From NCBI GenBank assembly GCA_902593445.1, contig CACJIJ010000011.1, forward strand, positions 1-43,202: DNA of 43,202 bases, given 5' to 3'. Source of the DNA: an uncultured Pelagibacteraceae bacterium (lineage in GTDB: Bacteria; Pseudomonadota; Alphaproteobacteria; Pelagibacterales; Pelagibacteraceae). Shown piece after piece: positions 11,886 through 15,851 of the stretch. Each line of letters opens with the position of its first letter. Positions within the stretch are counted from its first letter, which is position 1. The notes beneath the pieces were generated by a model. That model was not told where the DNA came from, did no database searches, and worked only from the letters and a program-made list of their open reading frames with translations. The position numbers and the translations under genes are program-made.

Positions 11886-12318
11886 TAATATTTTTATATT
11901 CTTCCTTTTAATACCCTTTATTACCTCAAGTAATGCAGGAGAAATATTCGTTTCTCTTAAAAAAAATAAGGTAAATGTACGTTATGGACCAAGTTTCGAA
12001 TCTGACATTAAGTATGTTTACAAAAAAATAAATTTACCTTTGAAACAAATTGATAAAAAAGAAAATTTCAGGCGAATTATAGATTTAAAAAATAACAGTG
12101 GATGGATTCATATTTCACAATTAAAAAAAAATAATTCAGTAATAGCTACTAAAGATAAAGTTTTATTTAAGAAACCTACATCTTTTGCTAAACCAGTTGC
12201 TCAAATTAAAGAAGGAAGACTATTAATTATAGAAAAATGTCAACAAAATTGGTGTAAAATTACATCAGATGAATTTGAAGGTTGGATTAAAACAGATAAT
12301 ATTTGGGGGCTAAATTAA
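11863..12318 (+). CDS. Secreted bacterial SH3-domain protein
   Basis: This 151-residue protein begins with a lysine-containing N-terminus, a hydrophobic core (IFIFFLLIPFI) and a likely signal peptidase I site at SSNA/GE near residue 25, so the mature protein should be periplasmic. The rest looks like two SH3b-type repeats, about residues 27-85 (with NVRYGPSFESDI) and 90-150 (ending WIKTDNIWG), similar to alphaproteobacterial SH3 proteins of the DUF1058 type. SH3b domains often bind peptidoglycan, but no catalytic domain is present and the target is unknown. The start is a GTG 23 bases inside the preceding gene; no closer in-frame ATG exists. The 3' end overlaps the convergent DUF3501 gene by 4 bases. 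Confidence 0.8.
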   Translation: MKIKNLINNIFIFFLLIPFITSSNAGEIFVSLKKNKVNVRYGPSFESDIKYVYKKINLPLKQIDKKENFRRIIDLKNNSGWIHISQLKKNNSVIATKDKVLFKKPTSFAKPVAQIKEGRLLIIEKCQQNWCKITSDEFEGWIKTDNIWGLN

Positions 12319-12914
12319 CTAAAATCAGCAGATAAAGAGGATATATTTTCTTCAGATAATTTTGTGCTGTGAGAATATTCTTGGTGATCAATACCAAGCT
12401 CAATTTCTGAACTATTAGATTTAAATTTTTCTATTTGATCATCAGTAAAATTAAAATGAATAAACTGTACTGAAGAAGCTTTTCCTTCACTAGAAGTTCT
12501 ATCTACATCTTCTTCTGGAACCGCTTTAATTTTCTCACCATTTATTTTCATAAATACTGTTTCTTCTATTCCACCAACTTTTCCAAGAAACGCCGCTCTT
12601 GAAATAGGATTATCTATTTCAAACATTAGAGTTGCTGTAAGCTCTTTTCCGTTAGGTATTAGAGGATTATACGCAGAAAGCTCATCCTGAAGTTGTTCAT
12701 CACCACCTTTTTCAATGTATAGCATTTCTTGAACTTGAGCTAACATTGTTTCATAACTTTCAAAATAAAAAGTAGCATAAGGACCTAAAGCAACTCTCCT
12801 ATTTTTTTTATAATCAACAATATTTTTTCTTAATTCACGTCTCTTCCCTATATAAACATCTAGAGGCATGATATCTTCTTTTTGGATTTCTCTTTTTTCT
12901 CTAGGCATGCTCAT
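12315..12914 (-). CDS. DUF3501 family protein
   Basis: The 199-residue protein matches what I know of the DUF3501 family (KREIQKEDIMPLDVY, RRVALGPYATFYFESYETM, and the acidic EMLYIEKGG segment). The family has no assigned biochemical role but is repeatedly found next to rubrerythrin and a GlpC/HdrD-like Fe-S protein, as here. It is acidic, has no signal peptide or membrane segment, and should be cytoplasmic. Its start overlaps the Fe-S gene stop by 4 bases (ATGA), indicating translational coupling. A second start two codons downstream (MPREKR) is possible. Function is unknown; a role in peroxide or iron handling is inference from context. Confidence 0.85.
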   Translation of the reverse strand: MSMPREKREIQKEDIMPLDVYIGKRRELRKNIVDYKKNRRVALGPYATFYFESYETMLAQVQEMLYIEKGGDEQLQDELSAYNPLIPNGKELTATLMFEIDNPISRAAFLGKVGGIEETVFMKINGEKIKAVPEEDVDRTSSEGKASSVQFIHFNFTDDQIEKFKSNSSEIELGIDHQEYSHSTKLSEENISSLSADFS

Positions 12915-14242
12915 AAGTTATAACTTTTAGCCATTAATTCGATAGGATGTAGTGCCTCATCATTAGATATATTTGTATCAACTTCTAACTGTTTTAAATG
13001 TTTGCCAGCTAAAGGACAATCAGAAGCCATATACTTATTATTTTTAGTTTTAATTTGTCTAGCTGTAGGTCTTCCGACTTTATTTGCTAAATCATGAGTT
13101 TCTTTCATTACTCCAAAAGTTCCTCCATGACCTGCACATCTTTCAACCACATCAATTTTAATGTTTGGTATCAATTTTAACATATCTCTCGCTTTGTTAC
13201 CAATGTTCTGTGCTCTAGCATGACAGGCGTGATGTACGGTTACTCCTCCATCAATCTCATTTAATCCTTCTTCTAATCCCTCGTTGTTTGAAATATCAAC
13301 TACATACTCGTCAATATCCATAACATTTGCAGATAATTTTTTAATTTTTTCATCATTTGGTAATAACAAAGGCCATTCGAATTTTAACATCAATCCACAA
13401 CTTGCTGTTAAAGTTACCACTTTATATCCTTTATCAATCCATTCGATTAAATCCTTAGAAACTTTTTTTGCTTGTTCAACAACTTTTGGCAGATCTGCTT
13501 GCTCTAGAAATGGCATTCCACAACAACCAGGATAGGCCTCCTGCACCTCTACACCATTTTTTTTCAAAACTTTTAAAGCAGCAACACCAGTATTTTTTTT
13601 ATTAAAATTTACAAAACAAGTTGAATAAATAACAACTTTTCTTTCTTTAGAAGGTGTTTCATAATTAATTTTATCTTTATTTTTTTTAAAGAAATTTGAA
13701 AAAGTTTCGGAGTTATATTTTGGTAATTGAACCCTTTTATCTATTCCAGTAATTATTTCTAAGATTTTTCTAATTAATTTATTTTTAATATTTGATGCCC
13801 AGTTAACTATTTTAGAGAACATGACACCAATTTTAGCGTTTCGGTCTATTTGGGCTAATTGTGTTGGTACGCTTGGTAATTTACCTAATTTTTTTTGAGC
13901 TGTTCTATATCGCAGCATTAAATGTGGAAAATCTAAATCAAAATCATGAGGTGGAACATACGGGCATTTAGTCATAAAACACATATCACACAAAGTACAT
14001 GCATCAACAACAGGGGAAAATTGGTCACTAGATAAGCTTTCAACATCTTCATTTTTAGACTCATCAATCATGTCAAATAGCTTTGGAAATGAATCACAAA
14101 GATTAAAACATCTTCTACACCCATGGCAAATATCAAATACTCTTCTCATTTCAGCATCTAGTTTTTCAGGATTTAGAAAATCAGGATGTTCAAAATCTAT
14201 TGGATGTCGTATAGGTGCACTTAAGCTTCCTTCTTTGCTCAT
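12911..14242 (-). CDS. Two [4Fe-4S] cluster, CCG-domain oxidoreductase (GlpC/HdrD-like)
   Basis: The 443-residue protein has two ferredoxin-type cluster motifs near its N-terminus, C39-x2-C42-x2-C45-x3-C49 and C82-x2-C85-x2-C88-x4-C93-P, then a linker and two cysteine-rich CCG-type domains. The first has PGCCGMPFLEQ; the second has HHACHARAQNIG followed by ERCAGHGGTFG, where the CCG is altered to CAG. This layout is that of GlpC and heterodisulfide-reductase D-like electron carriers. There is no flavin or catalytic oxidase subunit nearby, so it is not an ordinary glycolate or glycerol-3-phosphate dehydrogenase part. It lies between rubrerythrin and DUF3501 on the same strand, so it may pass electrons to the rubrerythrin, which lacks its own rubredoxin. 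That link is inference. Confidence 0.85.
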   Translation of the reverse strand: MSKEGSLSAPIRHPIDFEHPDFLNPEKLDAEMRRVFDICHGCRRCFNLCDSFPKLFDMIDESKNEDVESLSSDQFSPVVDACTLCDMCFMTKCPYVPPHDFDLDFPHLMLRYRTAQKKLGKLPSVPTQLAQIDRNAKIGVMFSKIVNWASNIKNKLIRKILEIITGIDKRVQLPKYNSETFSNFFKKNKDKINYETPSKERKVVIYSTCFVNFNKKNTGVAALKVLKKNGVEVQEAYPGCCGMPFLEQADLPKVVEQAKKVSKDLIEWIDKGYKVVTLTASCGLMLKFEWPLLLPNDEKIKKLSANVMDIDEYVVDISNNEGLEEGLNEIDGGVTVHHACHARAQNIGNKARDMLKLIPNIKIDVVERCAGHGGTFGVMKETHDLANKVGRPTARQIKTKNNKYMASDCPLAGKHLKQLEVDTNISNDEALHPIELMAKSYNL

Positions 14243-14307: not shown

Positions 14308-14724
14308 TTAGCTAATAGATTCTAAAGTTTTTTGAAATTTACCAGCGTGTGATTTTTCAGCTTTAGCTAAAGTTTCAAACCAGTCAGCAATTTCTTCAAA
14401 GCCTTCTTCTCTAGCTGTCTTGGCCATACCAGGGTACATATCAGTATACTCATGAGTTTCACCTTGTACTGCTGAAGCCAGGTTAGCTTTTGTTTCGCCA
14501 ATTGGCATACCAGTTCCTGGATCACCAACTTCTTCTAGATACTCTAAATGACCATGCGCGTGACCAGTTTCACCTTCTGCTGTTGATCTAAAAACTGCAG
14601 CTACATCATTGTAACCTTCTATGTCAGCTTTTTGTGCAAAATAAAGATATCTTCTGTTTGCTTGACTTTCACCAGCAAACGCCTCCTTTAAATTTTCTTC
14701 TGTTTTACTTCCTTTTAAAGACAT
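14308..14724 (-). CDS. Rubrerythrin-type diiron protein without rubredoxin domain
   Basis: Rubrerythrins reduce hydrogen peroxide at a diiron site. The 138-residue protein consists only of the ferritin-like four-helix part. Candidate iron ligands are E19 (AGES), E52 and H55 (GETGH), E89/E92 (GETHEY) and E123/H126 (EKSH). The usual C-terminal rubredoxin domain with its two CxxC motifs is absent; the frame ends after LESIS. An outside electron donor is therefore needed, and the Fe-S/CCG protein encoded next is an obvious candidate. It has one of the few strong Shine-Dalgarno sequences in the window (AAAAGGAG at 14731-14738), suggesting high expression. An Irr-box-like site lies upstream. Confidence 0.93.
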
Positions 14725-14738: not shown

Positions 14739-14782
14739 AAATGATGATAGAGATATAATGCTTATGCAGAATATGTCAACAG

Positions 14783-14799
14783 TTTAGAATTATTATAAT
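14783..14799 (+). promoter_or_regulatory. Candidate Irr box (iron control element) upstream of rubrerythrin
   Basis: TTTAGAATTATTATAAT fits the alphaproteobacterial Irr-box pattern TTTAGAA-N3-TTCTAAA as I recall it: the left half is exact and the right half (TTATAAT) matches 5 of 7. It lies 59-75 bases upstream of the rubrerythrin start. A nearly identical site lies before irr (15263-15279). Binding by Irr is inference. Confidence 0.6.
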
Positions 14800-14828
14800 G
14801 TATATTTTAAGTAATTGATTTAATGGAA

Positions 14829-15257
14829 TTATTTTTGATTTTGATTATCACTCGCAACTCTAACCAAAACTTCAACTGAATTTATTTTTTTTCCGGTTAT
14901 ATTTTTTCTAATATTTATTTTGTCTATATCGCTCTCATCACAATCGATTAGCTCATGCGTGTCTTCATCAAAAAAATGGTGATGTGCTGATGTGTTTGTA
15001 TCAAAATAACTTTTATGACTATCGATTGAAATTTCTTTTAAATATCCTTTTTTTTCAAATGCATGAACTGTGTTATAAACTGTAGCTAGAGATATCTTTT
15101 GACTCATTTCCTCAGATAACATTTTAACCAAATCGTTAATTGTGAAATGGAAAGTTTTTTCTCTATTGTACAAAACTTCGCACATTTTTATTCTTTGCTT
15201 GGTAGGTCTAAGCCCAACTTCTCTTAATTTTTCAATAAAATTGCAGTTTTTTGGCAT
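14829..15257 (-). CDS. irr: Iron response regulator Irr (Fur family)
   Basis: Irr is a Fur-family repressor/activator that senses iron through haem in alphaproteobacteria. The 142-residue protein has the Fur winged helix with LRPTKQRIKMCEVL and the recognition region KISLATVYNTVHAFEKKGYL. It also carries a histidine cluster AHHHFF (H92-H94) that matches the HHH haem-binding motif of Irr rather than the usual Fur HHH(D/E)H site. Position supports this: irr lies divergently next to fabA, an arrangement known from other alphaproteobacteria. A candidate Irr box ends just 6 bases upstream of its start, suggesting self-control. A PerR-like role is the main alternative. Confidence 0.88.
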   Translation of the reverse strand: MPKNCNFIEKLREVGLRPTKQRIKMCEVLYNREKTFHFTINDLVKMLSEEMSQKISLATVYNTVHAFEKKGYLKEISIDSHKSYFDTNTSAHHHFFDEDTHELIDCDESDIDKINIRKNITGKKINSVEVLVRVASDNQNQK

Positions 15258-15262
15258 TGTTT

Positions 15263-15279
15263 TTTATAATTATTCTAAA
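15263..15279 (-). promoter_or_regulatory. Candidate Irr box between irr and fabA
   Basis: On the minus strand the site reads TTTAGAATAATTATAAA. The left half matches the Irr box exactly and the right half (TTATAAA) 6 of 7. It shares 15 of the first 16 bases with the site before rubrerythrin. It starts 6 bases before the irr ATG, where a bound protein would block transcription or initiation of irr. It is also 72 bases upstream of fabA. Confidence 0.6.
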
Positions 15280-15350
15280 GTATGAATAAAAATATAGTGT
15301 TTTATTATATTATATTAGGATTAAATCAAGTATTAAGGGAGCTCAAAATT

Positions 15351-15851
15351 ATGAAAAAAAACTCATACTCCTATGATGATCTTATAACTTGTGGAAATGG
15401 TGACCTTTTTGGTCCTGGTAATGCTAAATTACCACTCCCACCAATGCTTATGTTTGACAGAATAACGGAAATCAATGAAAATAATGGAGCGTTTAATAAA
15501 GGCTCTTTAAAAGCTGAATTAGATATTAAAGATGATCTTTGGTTTTTTGATTGTCATTTTAAAAAAGATCCAGTTATGCCAGGGTGCCTAGGTTTAGATG
15601 CTATGTGGCAACTAGTAGGTTTTTTTCTAGGTTGGCTAGGAAATCCTGGAAAAGGAAGAGCTCTAGGAGTGGGTACTGTGAAATTTACAGGCGAAGTATT
15701 ACAGAGTGTAAAAAATGTAAGATATGAAATAGATATGAAAAAAATTATGTCTCCTGCAGGAACAACTGTTGGGCTTGCAAATGGAATTGTTCTTGCAGAT
15801 AATAAAAAAATATATTCAGCAGAAAGTTTAAAAGTAGGGTTGTTTAAATAA
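15351..15851 (+). CDS. fabA: 3-hydroxydecanoyl-ACP dehydratase/isomerase
   Basis: FabA dehydrates beta-hydroxyacyl-ACP and isomerises trans-2-decenoyl-ACP to cis-3-decenoyl-ACP, the branch point for unsaturated fatty acids. The 166-residue protein has the catalytic histidine in [11 protein letters not shown] (H69) and the catalytic aspartate in LGLDAMWQ (D83), matching H70 and D84 of the E. coli enzyme. The frame opens earlier at 15282, but that extension is unlike FabA; the ATG at 15351 has AAGGGAG at 15335-15341 and a normal N-terminus. The stop shares a base with the fabB start (TAATG). Together with fabB and fabI it forms an unsaturated fatty acid operon. Confidence 0.97.

Follow-up and report, generated by a model that had tools for sequence, protein, structure and literature searches.

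Two Irr-type boxes beside irr suggest an Irr-controlled, exchangeable peroxide-defence slot in SAR11 bacteria

The stretch of DNA analysed here, 43,202 nucleotides from an uncultured Pelagibacteraceae bacterium (hereafter the window), was found to carry two closely similar Irr-type palindromes, one on either side of the irr gene. It is proposed, with a probability of roughly 0.8, that these boxes are Irr operators and that Irr represses itself together with one exchangeable peroxide-defence module. Irr, a relative of the Fur proteins and an expected haem sensor, would bind both the box that abuts the -35 element of the rubrerythrin gene (rbr) and the one within its own leader; the bound protein would repress the rubrerythrin/RFO/DUF3501 module as well as irr itself. 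Inactivation of Irr by haem, peroxide or both, the predicted inducing signals, would then release the module and irr. The place after irr would act as a peroxide-defence slot, occupied in other SAR11 genomes by katG, with the box over the katG promoter. Irr from Rhodobacter sphaeroides is reported to bind the promoters of ccpA and of the rubrerythrin-like mbfA, and loss of irr in that species to raise peroxide resistance (PMC3413700). In Bradyrhizobium japonicum, Irr is degraded in response to H2O2 (PMC4902296), and inactivation of Irr by haem has been described elsewhere (PMC7762939).

Table 1. Features of the irr locus in the window, with small ORFs from three sister-family loci
Feature	Position	Strand	Remarks
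DUF3501 protein gene	12315..12914	-	
RFO-like Fe-S oxidoreductase gene	12911..14242	-	CCG domains, GlpC-like
rbr, rubrerythrin	14308..14724	-	without C-terminal rubredoxin part
Probable rbr -10, TATATC	14752..14757	-	spacer 16; by eye
Probable rbr -35, TTGACA	14774..14779	-	3 nt after box; by eye
Irr-type box before rbr	14783..14799	-	17 bp; 12/14 consensus bases; half TTCTAAA intact, toward -35
irr, Fur-family regulator	14829..15257	-	HHH haem motif; no Cys-Pro motif
Irr-type box in irr leader	15263..15279	-	17 bp; 13/14 consensus bases
irr promoter-like TTAATA-16-TATAAT	15309..15336	-	upstream of box; weak
fabA, divergent	15351..15851	+	irr gap common to both; family match from 15351, ORF-list start 15282
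Small ORFs behind canonical box	L151 1580-1765, L154 1579-1764, L171 1241-1444 (minus)		

The gene names given in the first-pass annotation, which had been made from the letters of the window, were upheld by matches to the Rubrerythrin (PF02915) and FUR (PF01475, 5.2e-22) domains. Irr was the best NCBIfam match of the regulator, yet below the model cut-offs (133.3 vs 150 bits and 121.2 vs 170 for NF045678 and NF045677, respectively), while the best PerR model gave 63.3 bits where 200 are required and so the protein does not score as a PerR. The HxH haem-binding motif is present as HHH after YFDTN, and a regular expression for it matched 115 of the 124 Pelagibacterales Irr proteins and 29 of 30 from other orders. 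A Cys-Pro pair was absent from the first 60 residues of all 124 Pelagibacterales Irr proteins. This heme regulatory motif does not define the Irr family, as it is not universal and the R. sphaeroides Irr is without it (PMC3413700). The rubrerythrin (138 aa) aligns to positions 3-145 of a 194-position rubrerythrin model. It has no rubredoxin domain and adjoins DUF3501 and GlpC-like CCG Fe-S protein genes, which agrees with the aerobic-type rubrerythrin cluster as defined in PMC5114695. On the plus strand, fabA-fabB diverge from 15351, and the gap before irr is common to them and irr.

Of the two sites, TTTAGAATTATTATAA was located at 14783-14798 (plus strand) and TTTAGAATAATTATAA from 15279 down to 15264 (minus strand), with identity at 15 of 16 bases, reproducing the coordinates and likeness reported in the first-pass annotation. 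Its further statement that they lie in the two gaps flanking irr also held: the first is in the rbr-irr gap, 58 bp upstream of the rbr start codon, and the second in the irr-fabA gap, 6 bp upstream of the irr ATG. Both were scored as 17-mers against the Irr box/ICE palindrome TTTAGAANNNTTCTAAA (14 specified bases, the consensus being taken as worded in that annotation), and the claimed fit to the Irr pattern was borne out at 12/14 and 13/14 bases, with one half degenerate. Rodionov (2006) is the work that other papers cite for predicted Irr sites. The exact form TTTAGAATNATTATAA occurs twice in the genome from which the window derives (1,191,749 bases or 1.19 Mb scanned, 87% complete), at these two places only, either side of irr, compared with 0.13 copies expected under a second-order Markov model of the window. 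Both boxes are thereby confirmed as real, beyond chance.

Looser pattern scans were dropped as evidence since they gave no excess above chance. In the AT-rich window, 30 matches were found with up to three mismatches (26.4 expected), and 6 to TTTAGAANNNTTNTAA with one mismatch (5.6 expected); across the genome, up to two mismatches gave 93 matches against 80 for a reversed control. Nine inexact sites in the genome were inspected (seven with one mismatch, two with two). Four were within ORFs and five in gaps, the latter near genes which, judged by eye, resemble those for solute-binding or transporter proteins, and none of the nine was beside a peroxide gene. One such site, with one mismatch (L268 1281-1296, equal to C20:27180-27195 of the genome), lies 16 nt before an ABC solute-binding-like gene.

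Among close kin (the best 80 of 160 relatives, named Pelagibacteraceae), rbr follows irr and both boxes are present at 12/14 or better in 80/80. As the whole irr-fabA gap is conserved in these relatives, a wider genome set was needed. Of 147 Pelagibacterales genomes, 127 matched the Irr protein; three weak, Fur-like matches were excluded, leaving 124 irr loci for scoring. A box was called at 12 or more of the 14 consensus bases, a threshold to be read against an average of approximately 9 to 9.5 in shuffled gaps. By this measure, a box stands before irr in 77/81 SAR11-family genomes (70/72 in the genus of the window and 7/9 in another genus). Where rbr directly follows irr, it is preceded by a box in 64/65 genomes (27/28 in the SAR11 family and 37/37 in the sister family), and where katG directly follows irr, the box is found in 53/54 (44/44 and 9/9, both within the SAR11 family, with the site of the sister-family genome G004 falling short). 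The two exceptions, one rbr gap and one katG gap, have 11/14 bases, just below the cut-off; in G004 the irr-katG pair is away from fabA and the 11-base box lies between the two genes. The first-pass annotation had proposed that Irr controls itself and a rubrerythrin/Fe-S/DUF3501 module and had looked to conservation before the same genes in relatives; such conservation was observed for irr in the SAR11 family and for rbr throughout the Pelagibacterales with rbr after irr, and it lends the proposal comparative support. The second half-site is usually TTATAA in the SAR11 family, and the sister family has TTTAGAANNNTTCTAA before rbr, a full 14/14 box being present there in 15/37 genomes. The earlier suggestion that TTATAA is a SAR11-type variant is consistent with this distribution.

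The same site emerged from 7-mer enrichment with no motif supplied. TTTAGAA ranked first before irr (75/81 vs 3.8 expected) and before katG (52/53 vs 4.7 expected). For rbr, with its two sets (28/28 and 37/37), it came third and fifth, behind other words of the same site. The form GTTTAGAAYNRTTATAA gave 79 exact matches in the 147 genomes (13 in total for the reversed control), of which 74 fall no further than 300 bp from irr (34 on its upstream side, 40 on its downstream side). Because GTTTAGAAYNRTTATAA was chosen after the sites had been seen, it is the clustering at irr and not the total that counts as evidence, and the random spread of the pattern considered in the first-pass annotation was not found. 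Of the five other matches, one is approximately 65 bp before a katG match in the sister-family genome G089, two precede an iron-transporter-like binding protein gene in the sister family, and for the remaining two no link is evident. The exact canonical site was found in 27 genomes. In six of these from the SAR11 genus, and in sister-family G025 and G027, it stands apart from irr, rbr, katG and fabA, with no neighbouring gene common to the eight. A full canonical Irr box also precedes a small ORF of 61-67 aa in the sister-family genomes G077, G089 and G004.

A TTGACA-like word (at least 5/6) starts 3 nt after the box in 65/65 rbr promoters; the rbr promoter of the window was unlisted by a consensus scan because its -10 is without the final T. 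In SAR11-family katG promoters, the TTATAA half of the box coincides with the -10 in 45/53 cases, with a TTGACA-like word 14 to 17 bp ahead of it. Service of TTATAA as a -10 may explain the degenerate half at katG, but not at rbr or irr. A promoter scan of the region returned two promoter-like sites, the weak irr one among them, against 4.4 expected, and so no excess; in 70/77 genomes a TATAAT is found upstream of the irr box, at most 60 bp away. Promoter blocking would be the simplest reading of these positions.

It is also conceivable, although unlikely, that the boxes are Irr sites at which Irr activates rbr (perhaps katG as well) in low iron while repressing itself. In Pelagibacter ubique, rbr mRNA rose 1.57-fold (P 0.025) in iron limitation (PMC2864753), which counts against repression because rbr should fall in low iron if Irr were a simple repressor switched off by haem. 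The rbr box, just upstream of the -35, is in a possible activator position, and Irr is reported to activate or repress according to the position of its site (PMC7762939). However, the overlap of the box with the -10 at katG and the location of the irr box in the leader both suit blocking, and R. sphaeroides mbfA, which is bound by Irr, is higher in an irr mutant and yet shows a weak rise in low iron (PMC3413700). The P. ubique irr mRNA itself clusters with stationary-phase genes (PMC2864753).

A site in the irr-fabA gap could instead, or in addition, serve fabA and hence fatty-acid synthesis, as the gap is common to both genes and wholly conserved in close relatives. This is regarded as improbable, since the box hugs the irr start codon and the sister family keeps fabA in place while, G004 apart, having the box before irr in 0/41 scored genomes. 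Likewise, in G090, from which irr is absent, fabA is beside katG and the box is missing.

The boxes were in fact found to follow irr and not the place. Ten genomes have katG and no irr; three of these (G046, G096 and G138) were left out as katG or its upstream DNA is at a contig end, although a 12/14 box is present in G096. In the other seven, from four genera and with enough upstream DNA, the box before katG was absent (0/7), whereas it precedes katG in 3/3 sister-family genomes in which katG is away from irr. Loss of the box with irr and its presence at a distant katG tie it to Irr. It therefore seems quite improbable, more so than a role for fabA, that the boxes are bound by another Fur-family protein (Fur or PerR-like), despite the related proteins and related sites of this family and the weaker Fur-family matches in some of the same genomes. 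The boxes also fit the Irr consensus as worded in the first-pass annotation, and a different repeat is seen at SAR11-family iron-transporter promoters.

In those promoters, an Irr-type box at p<=0.05 was found in only 2/20 (20 chosen from the 77 genomes with the gene, irr-less G090 included), and the repeats they carry are of the GATAATCATT type, which resembles the Fur consensus. In the sister family, iron-transporter promoters have an Irr-type box in 25/25 cases at p<=0.05, 24 of them with at least 12 matches and mostly 14 to 18 nt before the start codon (the gene is present in 40 genomes, of which the best 30 were taken and five cut at contig ends were dropped). The operon thus differs between the families, with Irr-type boxes in L303-L332 and Fur-type repeats in L333-L352, as if its regulator had changed between them. 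The first-pass annotation had proposed a search for the pattern before irr, rubrerythrin and iron-uptake genes; it was present at the first two, and mostly absent at SAR11-family iron uptake. As the iron promoters of the SAR11 family are mostly without an Irr box, Irr there seems to act mainly on its own gene and the peroxide slot, although weaker sites may lie elsewhere.

An accidental likeness within AT-rich gaps can be dismissed. Only the control-like frequency of the pattern at one to three mismatches (window) or two (genome) speaks for it, and it is contradicted by the grouping of matches around irr and the constant distance to the -35, along with the count of the exact form and the presence of boxes in other orders.

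Irr-bearing genomes without rbr have katG in the same slot after irr. Across the 147 genomes, 68 have rbr, 67 have katG, none has both and 12 have neither; among the 124 irr genomes the figures are 65, 57 and 2 for rbr, katG and neither, and 54 of the 57 katG genes directly follow irr. A Fisher value for these counts disregards kinship and was set aside. At least eight rbr/katG swaps are required on a FabA-FabB tree of 121 rows, comprising 120 of the 124 irr loci and irr-less G090, all with usable fabA and fabB. This count should be read with the tree in mind, as it was built by a quick method, 59 of 116 inner branches are weak, and a tree of neighbour genes may count gene exchange between strains. 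Four of the 12 genomes without either enzyme (G019, G082, G108 and G109) are more than 90% complete; they also show no strong match to irr, and may have lost the whole peroxide locus. In L113 (4733-5589), an Asp/Asn beta-hydroxylase-like gene and a gene for a DUF2061 membrane protein come after katG in this slot.

It appears somewhat more probable than the contrary that SAR11 Irr has been cut down from a global iron regulator to a dedicated switch for itself and one peroxide slot, filled either by KatG or by the rubrerythrin-RFO-DUF3501 set, each of which excludes the other, with Fur having iron uptake. If this is true, the rubrerythrin-RFO-DUF3501 set would be the functional equivalent of catalase-peroxidase. 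The roles of the DUF3501 and RFO proteins would become testable, because the rubrerythrin found with them swaps with a well-understood enzyme at a single Irr-linked place.

Several known systems resemble this locus. In B. japonicum (mbfA, bfr) and R. sphaeroides (mbfA, ccpA), the same regulator family acts with ICE/Irr-box sites of the same 17-bp palindrome type, and the targets likewise handle peroxide or iron, one being rubrerythrin-like (PMC3413700, PMC4902296). Irr acting through ICE sites at genes for peroxide and iron handling is an already known kind of system. Unlike in those species, the predicted SAR11 target is not MbfA but a free rubrerythrin of the aerobic type, accompanied by RFO and DUF3501 and adjoining irr; katG replaces it in many relatives; one half-site is TTATAA; and SAR11-family irr has its own site, with few other sites seen. 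The RBR-DUF3501-RFO cluster described by Cardenas et al. (2016; PMC5114695) has the same three adjoining genes and a rubrerythrin without the rubredoxin part. A term search of the text of that paper gave no occurrence of Irr, whereas in SAR11 the cluster stands after irr, behind an Irr-type site. Rubrerythrin has been reported in 4/28 SAR11 genomes and KatG in the clade, in passages that contain no statement of exclusivity (PMC11366302).

In PerR-type peroxide regulons, a Fur-family regulator is encoded beside peroxide-scavenging genes and has a site before its own gene. The SAR11 locus is like these in its regulator-gene layout and own-gene site, but the window protein scores higher on the Irr models than on PerR and the site is of the Irr type. 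Within the parts of the open-licence literature searched, no report was found of the rbr/katG exchange or of Irr with an RBR-DUF3501-RFO cluster, and both a class-wide irr-rubrerythrin site and a narrow Irr locus in which two peroxide enzymes can replace each other seem to be new to that literature. SAR11 cells, which have few regulators, belong to the most abundant in the ocean. A predicted regulator, operator and target can now be named for their peroxide defence, and the slot predicts which SAR11 genomes depend on KatG and which on rubrerythrin.

The rubrerythrin site was also sought in 142 genomes across the class, 87 of which match the Irr model (the genome of the window included). Outside that genome there are 90 irr places, and 87 were examined after three weak second copies had been left out. 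The next gene is rbr in 57, katG in one and neither in 29, some of these being cut by contig ends. In the irr-rbr/katG gaps of other orders, a box was found at p<=0.05 in 49/58 and with at least 12 bases in 34/58, and a smaller set of such gaps gave 21/26 at p<=0.05. The rubrerythrin site is accordingly older than SAR11 and not a SAR11 invention, and these sites suggest that Irr control over this rubrerythrin goes far back in the Alphaproteobacteria and is probably ancestral. Before irr itself, a box reached p<=0.05 at 3/30 loci tested outside the order. This site is confined to SAR11's own family, and judging from these comparisons the self-site and the repeated katG exchange probably belong to SAR11. 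A divergent fabA lies within the retrieved stretch at 25 of the 87 irr places. The one katG in these other orders (L397, in genome G254) follows irr with a box of 13/14 bases, and is possibly an independent exchange.
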